From IMG/VR virus record IMGVR_UViG_3300042923_000494, positions 1-38,936 of that record: a DNA stretch of 38,936 nucleotides; one strand, 5' to 3'. The notes beneath the pieces were generated by a model. It did no database searches. It saw nothing but the letters and a program-made list of their open reading frames with translations, and was not told the DNA's origin. The translations under genes and the position numbers were made by a program. Below are positions 5,741-36,129 of this stretch, piece by piece (the stretch's first letter is position 1; every line of letters starts with the position of its first letter). Source of the DNA: a virus.

Positions 5741-5977
5741 GTGGATCTCGTCAGCAAACTCGCAACACCCCCGACCGGGCGACCTGTCGGCAAGTCGATC
5801 ATGGACGTTTGGGTTGACTCCCGCCCCACGCAGGAGCAGGAAGCAATCCTCGACGCCGCACGCAACAAGGCGTGGGGGCACGTAGCACTCCTCAAAGAGC
5901 TTGTCGCTGAGGGTGCACCGAACATGTCGGACACCTCGTTCCGCGTCTGGCGAATCAAGGTCGGGTACGAATCATGA
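5741..5977 (+). CDS. Small protein coupled to phosphoesterase, 78 aa
   Basis: GTG 5741 after CAGGGGAGTTCCC. The product starts MDLVSKLATPPTGRPVGKSI, has a central helical part (EQEAILDAARNKAWGHVALL) and ends FRVWRIKVGYES. The layout is like a short helix-turn-helix module: helix, turn with SDTSFRVWR, basic end. Its stop overlaps the ATG of the phosphoesterase, so the two are co-translated and likely form a pair. Function unknown. Confidence 0.7.
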   Translation: MDLVSKLATPPTGRPVGKSIMDVWVDSRPTQEQEAILDAARNKAWGHVALLKELVAEGAPNMSDTSFRVWRIKVGYES

Positions 5978-7176
5978 GCCTCGCAGACAACCTCGCCAAC
6001 CCTCCCGTGAAGGCCGAGCCCACGGGGACAGTCGATTACGGCCCCGAGGGTGGCGAGTTCAAGGACATCAAGTCCGATAAGCCGCTCGAACTCGCTTCCG
6101 ACTGGGATGCCGTGTTCCGCCAGTTCAACCTCGATCCCGAGGTGTTCGAGATTCTGGGCGACACCGTCCGGTGCTCCACATGGCAGCAGTCGAAGCGCAC
6201 CGATGGCGGCGACCGTGACATCGTCCAGCTCTACGCCTACCGTGCACTGTTCCGCCGCAAGACAGAAGATGCTGTCACTGAGGCCGACGTTGAGGCGGCT
6301 CGGAAGCGAATCCAGAAGTGGAAGCTTCCGAAGCGCATTCCCGGGACCGGCCTGGGCGCACCCGCTGCGGCCGTCCTGAACCTGGCGGACATGCAGCTCT
6401 TCAAGTCAGAGGGCGGCGGCGTAAAGGCCACTGAGCAGCGTCTCTACGACGGGCTCGAGAACTTCAACGCATGGGTGGGCAGGCAGCGCAAGGGCGGCCG
6501 GAACATCAACGAAGTGGTCATCGTGAACAACGGTGACCCCTACGAAGGCATCGCCGGCAACTACTCGACCCAACTGCACACGGTGCAGGGTGGACTGCGC
6601 AAGCAGATGAATGGCGTCCTGGACGTTTGGGGACAGTACGCGCGAGCCCTGTACCCACAGTTCGACAAGGGCCAGTTCGTTTCAGTGCTCTGCAACCACG
6701 GCGAGCTCGGTCGGCTCGGTTCCAACAAGAACCAGACGTCGGACTCCGACAACGGTTCCGCCTTCCTTGCCGAATGCCTCCAACGGGAACTGCGTGGACG
6801 TGCCGAGTTCGATCACATCAAGTGGACGATCCCGCACGACGAGATGAACGTGTACACGAACATCGCCGGGGTCCCGACCGGCTTCAACCACGGACACAAG
6901 ATCCCCGGCAGTGATGCAACAGGGTTCGAGAAGTGGCTGAACGGTCAGGTACGTGGTGACGCTGACGCCCACAAGGCGAAGGTGTGGATCACCGCACACC
7001 GCCACAACTACCAGTCGTTCGACCTTGGTTCCGCGACGGTGCACCAGTGCCCGTCGTGTGATGGCGGGTCGAAGTGGCTTCGGGACATGACTGGCAAGTT
7101 CTCACGCTCCGGGATCCTGGCTCTCCTCATCGGCGAGCACGACCCGATGGGCTGGTCCGACGTCGCATTCCTCTGA
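5974..7176 (+). CDS. Metallophosphoesterase (calcineurin-like fold)
   Basis: 400 residues. The metal-binding motifs appear in order: LADMQ (about residue 139, D-x-Q where the family usually has D-x-H), NNGDPYEG (about 187, GD motif), CNHGE (about 241, N-H-[D/E]), NHGHK (about 306) and TAHRHN (about 341, the HxH pair). These build a two-metal centre that hydrolyses phosphomonoesters or diesters, DNA or nucleotides. An N-terminal helical region of about 130 residues precedes the catalytic core. Long phosphoesterases of this type recur in actinophage accessory regions. The missing first His is seen in other members and does not by itself mean inactivity. Confidence 0.82.
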   Translation: MSLADNLANPPVKAEPTGTVDYGPEGGEFKDIKSDKPLELASDWDAVFRQFNLDPEVFEILGDTVRCSTWQQSKRTDGGDRDIVQLYAYRALFRRKTEDAVTEADVEAARKRIQKWKLPKRIPGTGLGAPAAAVLNLADMQLFKSEGGGVKATEQRLYDGLENFNAWVGRQRKGGRNINEVVIVNNGDPYEGIAGNYSTQLHTVQGGLRKQMNGVLDVWGQYARALYPQFDKGQFVSVLCNHGELGRLGSNKNQTSDSDNGSAFLAECLQRELRGRAEFDHIKWTIPHDEMNVYTNIAGVPTGFNHGHKIPGSDATGFEKWLNGQVRGDADAHKAKVWITAHRHNYQSFDLGSATVHQCPSCDGGSKWLRDMTGKFSRSGILALLIGEHDPMGWSDVAFL

Positions 7177-7182
7177 CAACTT

Positions 7183-7267
7183 CCATCCGGCCAACCCGGC
7201 GATCTAACTACTGATCCGGGCGACTGAGCCTGATTCCATTACCGCGTCGATGAGCGCGGCCGGATGG
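7183..7267. repeat. 10-bp perfect inverted repeat closing an 85-nt structured element
   Basis: CCATCCGGCC (7183-7192) and GGCCGGATGG (7258-7267) are perfect complements 65 nt apart. Inside, CCCGG...CCGGG gives another stem, and GCG...CGC a third, so a multi-branched RNA fold is possible. It begins 7 bp after the phosphoesterase stop and ends 30 bp before the HNH promoter. It may be a rho-type or processing signal, or a small RNA. Confidence 0.45.
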
Positions 7268-7277
7268 CTACTCCCGG

Positions 7278-7302
7278 GAATGTCCCCGGTCAGCGCTAGA
7301 AT
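7278..7302 (+). promoter_or_regulatory. Promoter of HNH cassette, shared with the reverse-strand copy at 22134-22158
   Basis: TAGAAT at 7297-7302 is a good -10 box. Upstream GAATGTC (7278-7284) and GGT (7288-7290) are matched at identical spacing in the opposite-strand copy, whose -10 is TAAGAT. Positions between these blocks differ, so the blocks look constrained. The start point should fall near 7308-7310, at the base of the leader hairpin. Confidence 0.55.
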
Positions 7303-7304
7303 AG

Positions 7305-7374
7305 GAACGGCCCGAAAGAGTGTTGGAAGCACTCTCCGGGCCTAACCAGAACCCCTAGGTAAGTAGGAGATTCA
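7305..7374 (+). promoter_or_regulatory. Conserved structured 5' leader of HNH gene (copy 1)
   Basis: The stretch 7305-7380 is matched by the reverse complement of 22056-22131 with two differences in 76 nt. It forms a hairpin: GGCCCG (7309-7314) with CGGGCC (7337-7342), internal loop AA/C, then A-GAGTG (7317-7322) with CACTC-T (7330-7335), loop around TGGAA. The two differences are bases 7317 (A here, C there) and 7335 (T here, G there), which pair with each other. After it come the sequence CTAACCAGAACCCCTAGGTA and the ribosome site TAGGAG. Confidence 0.8.
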
Positions 7375-7869
7375 ATGGCTACGGCCAATCTTATCGAACC
7401 GTGGAACAACCTCACTCAGGCTGAGCGATTTTGGGCGAAGGTCAGCAAGCTCGGCCCGCTGCCCGACAAGTCGGATCCGCTTGTGATGGCCCCCGCGACT
7501 CCTTGTTGGCAGTGGACCGGTGCCGTGTCCGCAACGTATGGGTCGTTCACGTGGCGTCCGAAGAAGCGCGGACAGACAACAGTCGCGCACCGCATCTCCG
7601 TCCTGCTTGCCGGGGTTGAGATTCCGGACGGCATGCAGGTGGACCACCTGTGCCGGAACCGTCTTTGCGTCAACCCGGAACACCTCGAGGTTGTGACGCC
7701 GAGCGTGAACATGCGCCGCGGTGACACCGTGGCCGCTGCCCGCGCAAGGGTCACCCACTGCCGCCGCGGCCATGAGTACACAGCGGAGAACACCAGAGTC
7801 ACACCGCGAGGCCAGCGGGAGTGCAAGGCTTGCGCGCATATCCGCTCGGTGGAGTTCCGCGCACGGTAA
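7375..7869 (+). CDS. HNH_3-type homing endonuclease with C-terminal zinc ribbon
   Basis: 164 residues, ATG 7375 after TAGGAGATTCA. The core has CWQWTGA (about 40-46), AHR, then the ββα-metal motif VDHLCRNRLCVNPEHLEVVT (residues about 86-105: the H of DHLC, the N of CVNP, the H of PEHL) as in HNH_3 endonucleases. The C-terminus has a CxxGH...N...CxxC ribbon (CRRGHEYTAENTR, ECKACAH), also present in the HNH gene at 35584. It nicks or cuts DNA and is likely a free-standing homing gene. It shares its promoter and leader, but not its protein family, with the gene at 21357-22061. Confidence 0.88.
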   Translation: MATANLIEPWNNLTQAERFWAKVSKLGPLPDKSDPLVMAPATPCWQWTGAVSATYGSFTWRPKKRGQTTVAHRISVLLAGVEIPDGMQVDHLCRNRLCVNPEHLEVVTPSVNMRRGDTVAAARARVTHCRRGHEYTAENTRVTPRGQRECKACAHIRSVEFRAR

Positions 7870-9123: not shown

Positions 9124-9540
9124 ATGGACATGCGCCGTCTCATGGTTCCCCTAGTCGCAGTACTTATGCTGACAGGGTGCGCCTCACAGGCGCCCACCGC
9201 CGAACCAGTGCCATCCACGGACCCAGCAGACAGTTGCGTCACAGTGTCGGATGGGACGGCACAAGCGTTGCGCGATGGCATCACTGACCCTGATGTGACC
9301 ATCGACAAGATCGCTGCCGTGCCCTCACCCAACAGCGACGCATGGTTCGTCGCAGCGGAGTACACCGCCACGGGCAGCTCGGGCACGGCAGTGTGGTACA
9401 CAACCCATGATCCCGCCGGCGCCGACAACGCGTTCGTCAGCATTGACGCCGTAGCCGAGGTCATCAGCACGTTCAAGCGTCCCGCCGACGCCTCCATTGC
9501 GATGGAGGGCGCACAACTGGCAGAGGGCTGCCTCGAGTAA
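9124..9540 (+). CDS. Secreted lipoprotein, 138 aa
   Basis: ATG 9124 after TTAGGATC; a second ATG at 9130 is possible. The signal peptide MDMRRLMVPLVAVLMLTGCA ends in a lipobox (LTGC). The mature part has acidic and Ala/Thr-rich character with a Cys near each end (SCVTVSDG and EGCLE) that could pair. It stands alone after the tRNA and before the late operon, a typical place for a lysogeny-expressed or exclusion gene. I see no close family. Confidence 0.72.
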   Translation: MDMRRLMVPLVAVLMLTGCASQAPTAEPVPSTDPADSCVTVSDGTAQALRDGITDPDVTIDKIAAVPSPNSDAWFVAAEYTATGSSGTAVWYTTHDPAGADNAFVSIDAVAEVISTFKRPADASIAMEGAQLAEGCLE

Positions 9541-9556
9541 CCCCGAGGGGGAGGGC

Positions 9557-9865
9557 ATGTGGGAACCAGACCCCCACTCAAGAACCGCCACCCCCGCCCA
9601 CCGTCAATGGCGGGCCCAGGTACTCCGTAACTCCGGAGGCCACTGCCAACTGCGCTACCCAAACAGATGCACCGGCATAGCAACAGAAGCCGACCACATC
9701 ATCGAAGTAGCAGACGGCGGCCCAGAGTTCGACGTCACCAACGGTCAAGGTGTGTGCGCTGCCTGTCACGCCCACAAGACAGCACTTCACGCCAATAGGA
9801 CACGTTGGTCAAAGCACCACACGTCCACCAAACACCCAAACGAACAACACCCAGGCCTCCGATAG
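9557..9865 (+). CDS. HNH endonuclease next to terminase
   Basis: 102 residues, ATG 9557 after GGGGAGGGC. The motif runs CQLRYPNRCTG, EADHIIEVADGG, then CAACHAHKTA: the HNH/ββα-metal fold with two CxxC-type zinc pairs. HNH proteins encoded next to the terminase help cos cleavage and packaging in many cos-type phages such as HK97. It is C/A-rich in codon use, unlike the G/T-rich terminase genes that follow. Start of the late region. Confidence 0.87.
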   Translation: MWEPDPHSRTATPAHRQWRAQVLRNSGGHCQLRYPNRCTGIATEADHIIEVADGGPEFDVTNGQGVCAACHAHKTALHANRTRWSKHHTSTKHPNEQHPGLR

Positions 9866-20460: not shown

Positions 20461-21387
20461 ATGGCCTACGCGCCGACGATCACGCCGTACTTCGACGCGG
20501 ACCCGTGTCCCCGGACTGAGGTGTTCTTCGAGGAGTTCGCCCCGGGGACGGCGACTGTAACCGTGTACCGGTCTGCGGCTGGCCGGGAGTACATGGTTCG
20601 TGGTGCTGTTGAGGCACCCACGGCTGGTTCGCTTTCGCGGATCGATTTCGAGTGCCCGTTCAACATCCCCGTCATCTATCGGGCAGAGATGTTCGATGCT
20701 GGCGGGTTGTCGTTGGGGTTCACGGATCCAACGACGTTGGGCGAAGTGTTCGACGGGCTTGAGCCTGAAGAGGACCTGCCGCCGGATATCGACCTGTACC
20801 CGTTTTCGGTGTTCTTGGGGACCGGGCTGGTGTCGGTCGACACGTGGCTCCATAACCCGCTGGACCCGCAGGGTGCGGTGAAGGTGACTGCGTTGAACAC
20901 GACCGCACGGAAGCTGTCGCGGCCTGTCAGCGGTGGCATTTCGCGCCCGATCGGACGTCGGGTTGGGGTTGTTCTGTCGCAGGGGCGGGGGGGTCTCCAG
21001 GGGTTCACATACGACGTATACGCGCCGGATGAGGACACTGCCGACAAGGTGCAGGCGCTCCTCGGTGACTACACCACAACGGCTGTGCCGGTGGTTTGTC
21101 TTCGTGTCGGTGGGCATGAGTCGCGGATGCGGATCCCGAAGCCCTTGTTCCTCGGGGTTATGGACATCGTTGAGGAAGACCTGGACATCCGGGCGACTGG
21201 CGAAGCCACCGTGCAGCACATGGTGGGCGACGAGGCCGCGCCCCCAGTCCCTGGTCTGTTTATTCCGCTTCTGACGAACGCGGACCTGAAGGCCGCGTAC
21301 GCGACGAACGCGGCGCTCAAGGCGGCGTACGCCACGAACAGTGATATGGCCCGCGACTATTCGCTGGCGGGGCTGGGTGGGCTATAG
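20461..21387 (+). CDS. Distal tail / minor tail protein
   Basis: About 308 residues; two ATGs at 20458 and 20461 follow AGGGGGTA. The first gene after the tape measure is usually the Dit-like tail-tip ring protein; the beta-rich sequence with TATVTVYRSAAGREYMVRG and the size agree. The C-terminus holds three 10-residue repeats of the form TNAxLKAAYA. The last 31 bp overlap the end of the opposite-strand HNH gene. Confidence 0.72.
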   Translation: MAYAPTITPYFDADPCPRTEVFFEEFAPGTATVTVYRSAAGREYMVRGAVEAPTAGSLSRIDFECPFNIPVIYRAEMFDAGGLSLGFTDPTTLGEVFDGLEPEEDLPPDIDLYPFSVFLGTGLVSVDTWLHNPLDPQGAVKVTALNTTARKLSRPVSGGISRPIGRRVGVVLSQGRGGLQGFTYDVYAPDEDTADKVQALLGDYTTTAVPVVCLRVGGHESRMRIPKPLFLGVMDIVEEDLDIRATGEATVQHMVGDEAAPPVPGLFIPLLTNADLKAAYATNAALKAAYATNSDMARDYSLAGLGGL

Positions 21388-22061
21388 CCGGCGTAGAGGT
21401 CGAGGATCTCGCGAGCCCAGGCGATCTTATCCACCACTCGCTGACCTGACGGCTGAGACGTGCTCCAGAGCTCCAGGTTCTCAAGACGGTTGTCGTCGCG
21501 CACGCCGTTGATGTGGTGAACGTTCTCCCAAGGGAAGAGCGATCGCCCGAGATGCTGTTCCAGCACGAACCGGTGCTGGTAGATGATGTACGACTCGCCC
21601 GGCGCGAGCGCGGGATCCATCGTCGAACCGACGCGTCGGTGGAGGTAGCCCCCAGCGTTCAGGATCCACTCGCCCGGTGCGCGGCGTCTCTGCGGGCGGA
21701 GCTGCCGAAGTTCGCCCCCGGCGCGGTGGATCTTGGCGTGCTGGCTGCAATAGCCCATCGAGCAATGAGGGCGGTCGCAGCCCTGGAACTCGCAACCTAT
21801 GCGGGCGCGGCGTAGCGGCTTCAGGGTCTCCCCGCGCCGCAACTGCGTGTAGTGGGCGTTGCAGTACGAACGGGCTTCGTGCGGTTCGCCGCAACCGTCA
21901 AAGGTGCACGTCTGGATGCTGCCGCGTGGTATCCGGGGCCGGATAGGAGTTAGCGGAGCCCCGCGGAGATGTTGCCTGCGGTGACTCTCGCAAAGTCCAT
22001 GGGTGGGGCCTCCGTCACGCCCGCAGCCATCGAAATCACAGGTACGCTGAGTGTCAGCCAT
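21357..22061 (-). CDS. HNH endonuclease with three N-terminal zinc-finger repeats
   Basis: 234 residues on the reverse strand, ATG 22061. Three tandem repeats of about 32-35 residues, each C-x4-C-x(8-10)-C-x2-H, start at CDFDGCG, CTFDGCG and CEFQGCD; they end in L-R-G or similar and should bind metal and DNA. The nuclease core is YQHRFVLEQHLGRSLFPWE, then VHHINGVRDDNRLENLELWS, an HNH_3-type H-H...N...N motif. It sits antisense inside the tail operon and is a likely homing invader. Its leader matches that of the gene at 7375, although the proteins differ. Confidence 0.87.
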   Translation of the reverse strand: MADTQRTCDFDGCGRDGGPTHGLCESHRRQHLRGAPLTPIRPRIPRGSIQTCTFDGCGEPHEARSYCNAHYTQLRRGETLKPLRRARIGCEFQGCDRPHCSMGYCSQHAKIHRAGGELRQLRPQRRRAPGEWILNAGGYLHRRVGSTMDPALAPGESYIIYQHRFVLEQHLGRSLFPWENVHHINGVRDDNRLENLELWSTSQPSGQRVVDKIAWAREILDLYAGYSPPSPASE

Positions 22062-22131
22062 TGAATCTCCTACTTACCTAGGGGTTCTGGTTAGGCCCGG
22101 CGAGTGCTTCCAACACTCGTTCGGGCCGTTC
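22062..22131 (-). promoter_or_regulatory. Conserved structured 5' leader of HNH gene (copy 2)
   Basis: Reverse complement of 22056-22131 matches 7305-7380 at 74 of 76 positions. The two differences are paired stem bases, so here a C-G pair replaces the A-T pair of copy 1. The downstream AGAACCCCTAGGTAAGTAGG and the ribosome site are identical. Confidence 0.8.
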
Positions 22132-22133
22132 TC

Positions 22134-22158
22134 ATCTTAACGCGTACCTCCGACATTC
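22134..22158 (-). promoter_or_regulatory. Leftward promoter of the tail-module HNH gene
   Basis: On the reverse strand TAAGAT (22139-22134) is the -10 box, with GAATGTC (22158-22152) and GGT (22148-22146) spaced exactly as in copy 1. It lets the HNH gene be read against the late operon. It also lies in the space before the rightward gene at 22181. Confidence 0.55.
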
Positions 22159-29248: not shown

Positions 29249-30409
29249 TCACCCTCTACCAGTGGGTTCTGGGTTCAGGGACGCGGACAGTTGCAGCATC
29301 CCGCGGCGCAGCGCTTCGATGTCTGACCGGGACTTGTACGCCCGCGACATGACCCGTGACGAGTGGCCGATGATGGCTGTGATGGTGACCTCGTCGACCC
29401 CGGCCGCGTACAGCAGGTCGACCGTGGTGTGCCGGAGATCATGGACACGCACGTTCCGGTTGATGCCCGCTAGTTCCCGGATCTTGATCCACTGTTTGGT
29501 GATGAAGTCGGGGTCGAACGGGTGCCCGTTAGGACGCGCGAAAACGAGGCCGTAGGGGCTGGTGACTGACTGGTCGCGGTAGCGCGTCAGAATGGACGCC
29601 AGGGGGTCTACGAGGGGTACGATGCGCCACCCCGCGCGCGTCTTCGGGCGTGTGAGGTAGAGACCGTCCGTGAGGTGCTGATACTCGAAGCCTTCAGGTA
29701 GTTGTTGCCCATCGGTGATGCGCTGCAACTGCCACGACAGGTCCAGAACGTCGCCGACCCGGTCCCACTGCAACCCGAGCACTTCACCACGCCGCGCACC
29801 GGTAAGGATGAACGTCGCCCACAGTGCACCCTCCGACGTTTGGGAGAACACCTCGAGCAGGTCGATCGCTTCCCGTGCGGTGAGTGCGTGCAGGTCGGTT
29901 ACCGCCTTCTTCGGCGCGGGCACAAGGTCTACAGGGTTCCGCCCGATCCGACCTTCACGTTCGGCGTCCATGAACGCTGCGGCCATCACGGAGTGCACGT
30001 TCCGCTGATACGTGGATGACAGGCCGTTGTCACGCATGACGGTGATGACGCGGCGGATGTGTTCCGGCTTCACGTCAGGGAGACGCATCTTCCCGATGGC
30101 CGTCCGCACCCACTTCAGGTTCGACCGGTACGACGCCGCAGTCTTCGGGCGCCGGCTCGGGGTGACGATCTCACGCATCCAGTAGTCGAGGTAGTCGTCA
30201 ACCTTGAATGATGCGGTGTGCAGGTCGCCCTGCTTCTCCAACTGTTTCCGCAGCTCGGACAGTTTCTTCTGTAGCGCAGCCTGCGTCTTCGCAGTGACCT
30301 GCTTACGTCGCGGCTTGCCGTCCGGACCCGGGGGGAGTTGTATCCGCCCGATCCACAGTCCACGAGCCTCTGAGTAGAAGAGGCCCCCCTCACCCTTTGC
30401 CCTAACCAT
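29249..30409 (-). CDS. int: Tyrosine integrase
   Basis: 386 residues from ATG 30409. Residues 1-55 form an AP2-like arm-binding domain (GLFYSEARGLWIGRIQL), about 68-160 a core-binding SAM-like domain, and 170-386 the catalytic domain with Arg 206 (TGARRGE), His 323 and Arg 326 (HDLRHT), His 349 (GHSS) and nucleophile Tyr 358 (MSRAYK). It integrates the phage at a host tRNA-Arg gene through attP at 31004-31054. Its start overlaps the HNH stop by 8 bp, so it is coupled to that gene. The ORF is open to 30487 but the extension lies in the HNH gene. Confidence 0.95.
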   Translation of the reverse strand: MVRAKGEGGLFYSEARGLWIGRIQLPPGPDGKPRRKQVTAKTQAALQKKLSELRKQLEKQGDLHTASFKVDDYLDYWMREIVTPSRRPKTAASYRSNLKWVRTAIGKMRLPDVKPEHIRRVITVMRDNGLSSTYQRNVHSVMAAAFMDAEREGRIGRNPVDLVPAPKKAVTDLHALTAREAIDLLEVFSQTSEGALWATFILTGARRGEVLGLQWDRVGDVLDLSWQLQRITDGQQLPEGFEYQHLTDGLYLTRPKTRAGWRIVPLVDPLASILTRYRDQSVTSPYGLVFARPNGHPFDPDFITKQWIKIRELAGINRNVRVHDLRHTTVDLLYAAGVDEVTITAIIGHSSRVMSRAYKSRSDIEALRRGMLQLSASLNPEPTGRG

Positions 30410-30872
30410 GGCGCGCAGCGAGGAACTCTTGCATCTTGGCTTCGGCGACGTCATGGGTCTTGCCCGTGAATTGGCGGCGCTTCCCACCGTCGAGTGTGAT
30501 ACGGGAAAACCAGAGTCCGCGGGGTTCTGAGTAGAAGGTGATGGGCTTGCGGTCCGCCCATTTGACGGCCATCGCTCGACGGATGTTCTCCTCGCGGGTG
30601 ACCGCCTCGAGATGATCGGGGTTCACGCAGGCGCGGTTACGGCACAGGTGGTCGATCGTCAATCCATCGGGGATCTCACCCCTGAAGATTCGGTAGGCGA
30701 CGCGATGGACGTGCGTGTTGAAGTAGGAGTCGCGGCGCTTCCAGAGCGCGTACCCGTTCGCCAGGGTGGCGTTCGTCCACGTCCAGCATGACCCCCTGGC
30801 GCCCGATGGCTTCACGTCAACTCGGGCGCGAATGTAGTCCTCCGGTGTTGCATCTAAAGGTGTGTACGGCAT
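30402..30872 (-). CDS. HNH_3 endonuclease with integrase-like C-terminal domain
   Basis: 156 residues, ATG 30872 after GGCTGGGGACTAG. The HNH core is CWTWTNATLANGYALWKR, HRVAYRIFRGEIPDG, then IDHLCRNRACVNPDHLEAVT (about residues 73-92). Residues about 112-156 (ITFYSEPRGLWFSRITLDGG, then KRRQFTGKTHDVAEAKMQEF) match the AP2-like N-terminus of the adjacent integrase (FYSEARGLWIGRI). The related HNH genes at 7375 and 35584 have a zinc ribbon in that place. The stop lies just inside the int start. Either a homing gene that took up int sequence or a partner of integrase. Confidence 0.86.
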   Translation of the reverse strand: MPYTPLDATPEDYIRARVDVKPSGARGSCWTWTNATLANGYALWKRRDSYFNTHVHRVAYRIFRGEIPDGLTIDHLCRNRACVNPDHLEAVTREENIRRAMAVKWADRKPITFYSEPRGLWFSRITLDGGKRRQFTGKTHDVAEAKMQEFLAARHG

Positions 30873-30955: not shown

Positions 30956-31003
30956 CCAAGTTTCCCCGGAATTCCCGCGGTTTCTAGCGCCAGTCTACCC
31001 TGT

Positions 31004-31054
31004 AGCGTTGGTTTCCGGTACCAAAGGTCGCAGGTTCGATTCCTGTCGGGGGCA
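31004..31054 (+). other. attP: attP core: 3' half of a tRNA-Arg (CCG)
   Basis: From 31004 the sequence reads as the latter part of a tRNA: AGCG, anticodon stem TTGGT (31008-31012), loop TTCCGGT with anticodon CCG (31015-31017), ACCAA, variable AGGTC, T-arm GCAGG-TTCGATT-CCTGT, acceptor half CGGGGGC and discriminator A31054. The 5' half is absent, so it is not a gene. Temperate phages keep such segments to restore the host tRNA after integration. Target: host tRNA-Arg(CCG). Confidence 0.88.
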
Positions 31055-34779: not shown

Positions 34780-35600
34780 TTCTTCACGACCTTTCAGACG
34801 CCGACTATCACGGCCGAAGCGAGCTCAGCAGCACGGGCGCCAGGCTTCTTCTCCCCGAGTTCGGTGGGTCGCCGGCGAAGTTCAAGTACCGGCAAGGACG
34901 CGAATACACCAGCACCGCGTTCGACGTCGGCAAGGCCGTCCACGCAGAAGTCCTCGGGGTTGGCGCATATGCCGTCGAGTACCCCGTAGACGTACTCGCG
35001 ACGAACGGTGCCGCATCCACGAAAGCCGCAAAGGAGTGGGCTGACAGTGTGCGGTTCGAGGGGAAGATTCCCATGAAAGCCGCCGACCTGCGACCCATCC
35101 GGGGGATGGCTCAGGCAGTCCTCGCACACCCCACCGCACGCGCCCTATTCGAGTTGCCGGGGCATCGTGAGGTGTCCGTGTTTGGTGAGGTTGACGGGGT
35201 GCCTGTGCGTGCCCGGTTCGACGCGCTCACCGAGGACGGCTACGGCATCGACCTGAAGACCACGGATGACGCTTCGCCCAGGGCATTCGAGAAGAGCATC
35301 GCCCATTGGGGGTATCACCTCCAGGCCATGTGGTACGAGGACACGCTCTACGCCGCGACTGGCCGCGGGCTCATCAACTTCAATTTCGTGGCAGTCGAGA
35401 AAGCGGCGCCATATCTAGTCGGCATCTACGACATGGACATCACCTTCCGCGACATCGGCAGCGAACTCGGACGGGAGGCGAGATCCATCTTCAAAGCCTG
35501 CGCCGACACGGGGCAGTGGGGCGGATACGAACCGCAGACGCTCGCCGCTCCCACCTGGCTCGTATACCAACACGAGGAACGCAATGAAATCCAGGTCTGA
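34776..35600 (+). CDS. RecE/Cas4-like exonuclease (PD-(D/E)XK)
   Basis: 274 residues, ATG 34776 after CCAGGAGAACCA. Begins with YHGRSELSSTGARLLL, the Y/H-x-x...S-S-T/S opening of the RecE/DUF3799 nuclease family, then FDVGKAVHAEVL (His of the active site), RARFDALTEDGYGIDLKTTD (D...D-x-K core, E replaced by D) and WGYHLQAMWYEDTL (Q-x-x-x-Y). It chews one strand to give 3' tails for recombination. It works with an annealing protein, perhaps the product of 36129. Confidence 0.88.
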   Translation: MILHDLSDADYHGRSELSSTGARLLLPEFGGSPAKFKYRQGREYTSTAFDVGKAVHAEVLGVGAYAVEYPVDVLATNGAASTKAAKEWADSVRFEGKIPMKAADLRPIRGMAQAVLAHPTARALFELPGHREVSVFGEVDGVPVRARFDALTEDGYGIDLKTTDDASPRAFEKSIAHWGYHLQAMWYEDTLYAATGRGLINFNFVAVEKAAPYLVGIYDMDITFRDIGSELGREARSIFKACADTGQWGGYEPQTLAAPTWLVYQHEERNEIQV

Positions 35601-36129
35601 GGCGCTAGAAGGCGTCAAGTCCCCATCGATCTTGGCTTCCGTACTCCACGACCTATCCGACGATGAGTGCTGGCCGTGGCGAGGCCACGTCACGCCGACC
35701 GGATACGGGTACGCCTATTGGCCCGGAACCTTGCGCCGCATGCGCGCGCACCGAGTCGTGTGGGCCTTCCTAGTAGGGCCGATCACCTCTGATGAGGTAC
35801 TCGATCACATCTGTCACGACCCCGACGAATGCACTAAAGGCAAGCTCTGCCCGCACCGTGCGTGTGTAAATCCGAATCACCTGAAGGTGTCGACGCTAGC
35901 GGAGAACACGCTGCGCGGGGGTAGCCCTATTGCGCGCAACGCGCGGAAGACGCACTGCAAGAGCGGGCACGCGTTCGACGAGGAGAACACTTACTACCGA
36001 CCCGGCGGCGGGAGAACTTGTCGCGCTTGCGCCATCACGCGGTTCCGGCAGGCAACTTTGGACCGGGGCGGCAAGCCGCGACCCGCGAGGCGCCGGGTCG
36101 ACCTAAACGAACTGGGGAGGACTGGCTGA
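35584..36129 (+). CDS. HNH_3 endonuclease with zinc ribbon, inserted in recombination operon
   Basis: 181 residues. ATG 35584 overlaps the exonuclease end by 17 bp after ACGAGGAACGCA. Core: CWPWRGHVTPTGYGYAYW, HRVVWAFLVGPITSDE, then LDHICHDPDECTKGKLCPHR and ACVNPNHLKVST (a longer H-to-N insert with extra Cys). C-terminus: THCKSGHAFDEENTYY and TCRACAI ribbon like that in the gene at 7375. It stands between exonuclease and the next recombination-type gene without breaking either, as homing genes do. Confidence 0.88.
   Translation: MKSRSEALEGVKSPSILASVLHDLSDDECWPWRGHVTPTGYGYAYWPGTLRRMRAHRVVWAFLVGPITSDEVLDHICHDPDECTKGKLCPHRACVNPNHLKVSTLAENTLRGGSPIARNARKTHCKSGHAFDEENTYYRPGGGRTCRACAITRFRQATLDRGGKPRPARRRVDLNELGRTG

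Follow-up and report, generated by a model that had tools for sequence, protein, structure and literature searches.

Plasmid copy number and the P22 antirepressor are the classical examples of antisense control at the ribosome-binding site (RBS), which is known from scattered cases. Free-standing homing endonucleases of T-even phages carry RBS-sequestering hairpins, described as sense-strand control, and Cluster K mycobacteriophages carry the SAS/ESAS, a GGGATAGGAGCCC-type start-associated motif with 17-bp inverted repeats. In IncQ plasmids, repA is controlled by RepX, a 75-nt antisense RNA lying over its RBS and start codon; RepX is bound by FinO in Salmonella, and FinP is structurally like it (PMC8136791). 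As cited in the review PMC12197685, CfrI of cyanophage S-PM2 is an antisense RNA tied to a homing endonuclease gene, and is the nearest precedent for such an RNA with a phage homing endonuclease; as given in that review, it is ~225 nt long, links psbA to F-ChpI and has another proposed role, unlike the antisense RNA predicted below. In the literature outside subscription journals, we found no report of an antisense RNA of the latter kind on HNH genes.

We analysed a 38.9 kb IMG/VR virus record (hereafter the window), in which two HNH genes are preceded by nearly the same leader. Exactly as an earlier note on this DNA had claimed, the 76-nt copies at 7305-7380 (plus strand) and 22131-22056 (minus strand) are identical at 74 bases, and the sole mismatches, at 7317 (A/C) and 7335 (T/G), lie opposite each other in one stem, forming A-T in one copy and C-G in the other. 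The same note's spaced promoter blocks upstream of both copies, GAATGTC and a TA-box (TAGAAT / TAAGAT), were confirmed, and the proteins behind the leaders are indeed of different build (a phrog_826-type HNH protein versus a zinc-finger protein of phrog_20891, with PF13392 in both). Conservation between the copies extends through ATGGCT and ends right after it. The hairpin core, allowing up to 3 mismatches, occurs twice in the window versus 0.11 times in shuffles, and a covariance model found just the two copies (E 4e-17 and 7e-17), its next matches being their own reverse strands (E 0.006 and 0.009) and then one at E 0.4. In this search, the window's other HNH genes, including those at 9497-9865 (+) and 35584-36129 (+), were without the leader. 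The features of the two copies are:

7278..7284, plus: GAATGTC block of copy 1, shared with copy 2
7297..7302, plus: sense -10-like box TAGAAT of copy 1; on the opposite strand, part of the U-rich tail after the terminator-like hairpin
7309..7342, plus: H1 hairpin of copy 1 (GGCCCG...CGGGCC), loop UUGGAAG at 7323-7329
7343..7347, plus: UAACC spacer after H1 of copy 1 (CCTRACC motif)
7354..7367, plus: H2 hairpin of copy 1 (CCTA-ggtaag-TAGG), 3' arm running into the Shine-Dalgarno TAGGAG at 7364-7369
7375..7380, plus: conserved ATGGCT of copy 1 with the start codon; the T at 7380 is the predicted antisense start site
7388..7393, minus: predicted antisense -10 TAAGAT of copy 1 (sense ATCTTA, offset 13 from ATG)
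7297..7380, minus: predicted antisense RNA of copy 1, ~70-84 nt, two stem-loops, fold z -4.5
7375..7869, plus: HNH endonuclease gene 1, 164 aa, HNH_3 / phrog_826
22152..22158, minus: GAATGTC block of copy 2
22134..22139, minus: sense -10-like box TAAGAT of copy 2
22094..22127, minus: H1 hairpin of copy 2, same loop UUGGAAG (22113-22107)
22069..22082, minus: H2 hairpin of copy 2, same loop as copy 1
22056..22061, minus: ATGGCT of copy 2
22043..22048, plus: predicted antisense -10 TACGCT of copy 2 (sense AGCGTA, offset 13)
22056..22139, plus: predicted antisense RNA of copy 2, two stem-loops, fold z -5.1
21357..22061, minus: HNH endonuclease gene 2, 234 aa, zinc fingers and HNH_3, phrog_20891

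The nearest described relative of this leader is that of IncQ repA. An Rfam search matched RF00043 (Plasmid_R1162) over the whole window leader with 35.6 bits (E 5.5e-5; reverse search E 8e-8), below that family's 55-bit gathering cut-off; the leader is thus related to RF00043 and not filed as a member. Both elements have two stem-loops over the Shine-Dalgarno (SD) and start codon with CCTAACC between them, GCCTAACCA after H1, CAATGGCTAC at the start, and an antisense -10-like site at the same offset (a family-wide trait; sense AGCCTA at offset 13 in IncQ repA, likewise offset 13 in the window, where the -35 is weak). The IncQ element differs in controlling a replication helicase within an operon, and in the sequence and loop of H1.

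Likenesses to the other systems are structural. P22 sar/ant (RF00262) also concerns a phage gene and, by the P22 annotation, has an antisense promoter inside the first codons, an upstream terminator hairpin and a covered RBS; its H1-like loop, CGGTAA, is of the same class as loops of the leader family described below, yet it has neither CCTRACC nor ATGGCT. The sar model had no match in the window at E≤5, and the family's covariance model (R1) scored ~5 bits on P22 sar and does not recognise it; the likeness among the leader family, RepX and sar may therefore be partly convergence. FinP/traJ of F-like plasmids is likewise a two-stem-loop antisense RNA covering the RBS, but differs in sequence and depends on FinO, and the Rfam FinP search of the window returned no match. 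The T-even hairpins share RNA structure at a homing endonuclease RBS and differ as sense-strand control, and the GGGATAGGAGCCC-type motif of Cluster K is absent from the window leader. The c4 antisense RNA of P1/P7 was considered and rejected, there being no Rfam c4 match in the window.

Distribution of the leader and the genes behind it

BLAST searches of 50,697 phage records with the leader as query gave no relative. A pattern scan of IMG/VR (GGGCCTAACC...GGAG...ATGGC, with the left hairpin arm outside the pattern) returned 92 places, ~50 of them with the same hairpin in front and ~40 of them chance, redundant or hairpin-free string matches. A stricter pattern on bacterial genomes gave 41 places, about 28 of which are real and lie in Actinobacteria, Alpha- and Betaproteobacteria, Desulfovibrionales, and one MAG each of Hydrogenedentota and Spirochaetales; the family also occurs in Gammaproteobacteria and in at least one plasmid group (IncQ), the small branch that is all Rfam 15 contains of it. 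Since loops of 6 or 7 nt led a MAFFT alignment of all matches to misplace the inner stem, the covariance model was seeded with 6-nt loops only. Across 23 such bacterial genomes, R1 detected between 1 and 4 copies per genome. In class or order samples it found the element, as lower bounds under strict filters, in 8 of 240 genomes centred on Aureimonas and 10 of 247 centred on Microbacterium at E≤1e-7, and at E≤1e-6 in 11 of 274 centred on Piscinibacter, 48 of 199 sampled from the class of a Desulfovibrionales MAG and, for the Aureimonas order, 31 of 297. Among the loci fetched, Microbacterium prophage regions are included in the window's nearest relatives; prophage loci L095 and L104, of Microbacterium schleiferi or M. 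telephonicum, carry a related leader.

The genes behind the element are HNH or homing nucleases, antirepressors, resolvases and small ORFans. Among 84 such proteins, HNH_3 was found in 15, and others carried Bro-N, Rha, NUMOD4, resolvase or sigma-70 region 4 domains; PHROGs matches added mainly HNH nucleases and anti-repressors. Conversely, Yvonnetastic, Footloose, Magritte, Kabocha, CMP1 and Cece, phages with similar HNH proteins, gave no R1 match, indicating that the leader does not travel with the HNH family as such. That it is common to unrelated selfish genes, as the earlier note had held, is further illustrated by a related phage (L006, 9032-11014, versus window 5974-7869), which has the same upstream gene (65% amino acid identity) and the same leader (88%) followed by a different HNH ORF; by sequence comparison, this appears to be an ORF exchange at a fixed leader.

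Several further observations concern these and neighbouring genes. Behind some leaders of Aureimonas (L106, L119, L149, L162) and of genome G037 (L167, L173, L174, L176, L177) there are only ORFs of 21-28 aa with conserved N-termini (MANPASNIFPPP, MADSENTRT); these are either what is left of decayed genes or genuine small peptides controlled by antisense RNA. In three actinobacterial loci (L179, L181, L187), a leader with the variant spacer CCTTGACC precedes short proteins of the resolvase N-terminal domain. Elsewhere in the window, an HNH gene at 30402-30872 (-) shares 86 bases with the start of the integrase gene (29249-30487, -). The C terminus of this HNH protein (FYSEPRGLWFSRI) is similar to the N terminus of the integrase (FYSEARGLWIGRI), so that the two neighbours seem, by sequence, to share a DNA-binding domain. 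Beside the integrase gene, 30998-31051 (+) has a weak tRNA-like Rfam match (29.8 bits, cut-off 29) and could be an attP copy of a tRNA gene end.

Leader structure and a predicted antisense promoter

Throughout the family, the order of elements is hairpin H1, CCTRACC, hairpin H2 holding the SD, and ATGGCT. H1 pairs over ~14 bp, includes an inner stem and closes in a loop of 6-7 nt; its base and CCTRACC are nearly invariant, the R being A or G in copies not chosen by string search. Covariation in H1 is extensive: in an alignment fitted to the structure, and hence leaning towards it, 95.1% of cells are paired and 103 cells are changed on both sides, compared to 15.5 ± 3.3 in shuffles and 5-20 when the partners are slid. 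The covariance-model search that the earlier note had put forward thus yields matches in which the stem is not freely broken, bearing out its suggestion that the pairing is selected. H2, in which GGAG usually sits in the loop or 3' arm, folds more stably than its shuffled versions (mean z -1.21 ± 0.12, 69 sequences). The leader is a structured RNA under selection for pairing.

The loops behave differently from the stems. H1 loops end in C..A or U..G and almost never in C..G or U..A; the two classes are mutual reverse complements, as would follow if the loop had to be open on both strands. Two paralogues of one Desulfovibrionales genome are separated by 8 differences over 101 positions, every one of them within the two loops; a second paralogue pair has 5 differences, 4 of them in the H2 loop, and three Aureimonas copies, as well as five copies in genome G037, also have differing loops. 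Such loop-only divergence within a genome is what would be expected of antisense partners avoiding cross-talk. In the window, both loops are identical between the copies and only the covarying stem pair differs; each antisense RNA should therefore silence both nucleases, a predicted cross-silencing.

On the opposite strand, the first codons carry a signal placed outside the covariance search model. Sense ANNNTA, which reads as an antisense TANNNT -10, is found at offset 12 or 13 after the ATG in 36 loci of a non-redundant set of 85, compared to 0.26 per offset at other places (maximum 2), and TA occurs at 16/17 in 61 of the 85 versus 1.6 elsewhere (maximum 6); the corresponding figures for 50 held-out loci from other genomes are 25 and 42. 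About one quarter of family members are without TA at 16/17. In a pooled set of 103 loci, which includes some copies without the antisense promoter, an antisense -35 at 17 bp spacing is apparent as CAA in 29 (background 1.9, maximum 6), and at least 4 of 6 -35 positions match in 28. CC follows the TA, as in an extended -10. The base after ATGGC is T in 85 of the 103, probably kept because the predicted start of the antisense promoter falls there. The 85 non-redundant loci encode unrelated proteins, and the arrangement (-35, 17 bp, -10) is of sigma70 type; by these statistics, an antisense promoter in the first codons is a predicted family feature. This putative antisense RNA gene, with its promoter in the first codons, is the opposite-strand half that the earlier note missed.

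Upstream of H1, the sense strand is A-rich (4.5 A of 9 versus 2.0), which would give the antisense RNA a U-rich tail after the H1 complement; some of this could be due simply to a sense -10-like box, which about one locus in five has directly upstream of the leader. In several copies, including the L053 and L013 leaders, GAATGTC lies 12 bases upstream of that box, too close for a -35, and the bases between the two differ among copies. In the window copies, the antisense -10 is in register, the -35 is poor and the U-rich tail is weak; automatic consensus promoter scans of the window did not find the antisense promoters, as expected for weak sites.

A candidate antisense switch and its alternatives

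With good confidence, we propose a cis-antisense RNA switch like IncQ repA/RepX, P22 ant/sar and traJ/FinP of the F plasmid, with each leader as its sense half. A backward promoter within the first HNH codons would start an RNA of ~70-80 nt opposite the T of ATGGCT; this RNA would form one stem-loop complementary to H2 and the SD, and a second complementary to H1 that would end it as a terminator-like hairpin. Its loops would kiss the same loops of the nuclease mRNA and then form a duplex over the SD and AUG, blocking nuclease translation to an extent proportional to the number of gene copies. In a cell that lacks the antisense RNA, an incoming homing nuclease gene would be expressed freely; it would be silenced once established or when a copy with the same loops is present. 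The parts of this proposal differ in standing: the two hairpins, the covariation, the putative family promoter and the loop-only paralogue divergence are established as sequence statistics, while we infer the making of the antisense RNA in the window phage, the translational repression and the copy-sensing biology. Among the roles the earlier note had listed, restriction of nuclease translation is the one favoured by the evidence.

Could the leader act on the sense strand only, its hairpins protecting the mRNA 5' end or tuning ribosome access as in T4-type free-standing homing endonucleases, with no antisense RNA? H2 does carry the SD, and roughly one locus in five has a sense -10 near H1, but such a leader would leave unexplained why unrelated coding sequences carry a backward -10/-35 at the same position, why the T of ATGGCT is kept and why paralogues diverge in the loops only; moreover, in IncQ the element lies between repF and repA, i.e., between genes and not at a 5' end. 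We therefore regard this reading as unlikely. A ribosome- or protein-recognition hairpin was rejected in view of the antisense promoter statistics, and CsrA-type control (GGA in the loop) was set aside because the hosts include groups that are not known for CsrA.

The near invariance of CCTRACC and the H1 base, and the binding of RepX by FinO in Salmonella (PMC8136791), would fit a phage or host repressor or stabiliser that binds via H1 and CCTRACC. However, the element spans several phyla with no evident common protein, and within a genome nothing in it varies more than its loops, contrary to what a fixed protein site would show; the idea that it is conserved primarily for a protein ligand, which the earlier note had entertained, is thus not supported and seems quite improbable, although a chaperone protein may act on top of the antisense RNA. 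Least plausible, to the point of being improbable in the extreme, is that the window copies merely reflect recent copying of a promoter-RBS cassette riding HNH gene turnover, with no regulatory RNA. The leader is 82-88% identical to that of related phages while coding DNA is 66-71% identical, and the ORF behind it was swapped in L006, as such copying would predict; yet covariation and promoter statistics over more than 100 diverged loci point to constraint and not only to copying, and a cassette can be both mobile and functional. The earlier note's mobile unit accordingly stands as regards its spread, but copies elsewhere differ by compensatory and loop changes, indicating functional constraint as well.

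Under the antisense-switch reading, these data tie one scattered case, IncQ RepX, to a widespread leader family, and place that family on homing endonucleases, for which the question is how they are restrained and how they burst on entering a new genome. More tentatively, and with somewhat less than even confidence, one very widespread family may comprise cis-antisense modules whose loop types are interchangeable and which sit on selfish or mobile genes (homing nucleases, antirepressors, resolvases, plasmid rep genes) across several phyla and phages, of which RepX would be one known branch. Its loops would act like incompatibility or immunity groups, such that a resident silences an incomer of the same type, whereas a naive cell lets the nuclease burst and home.
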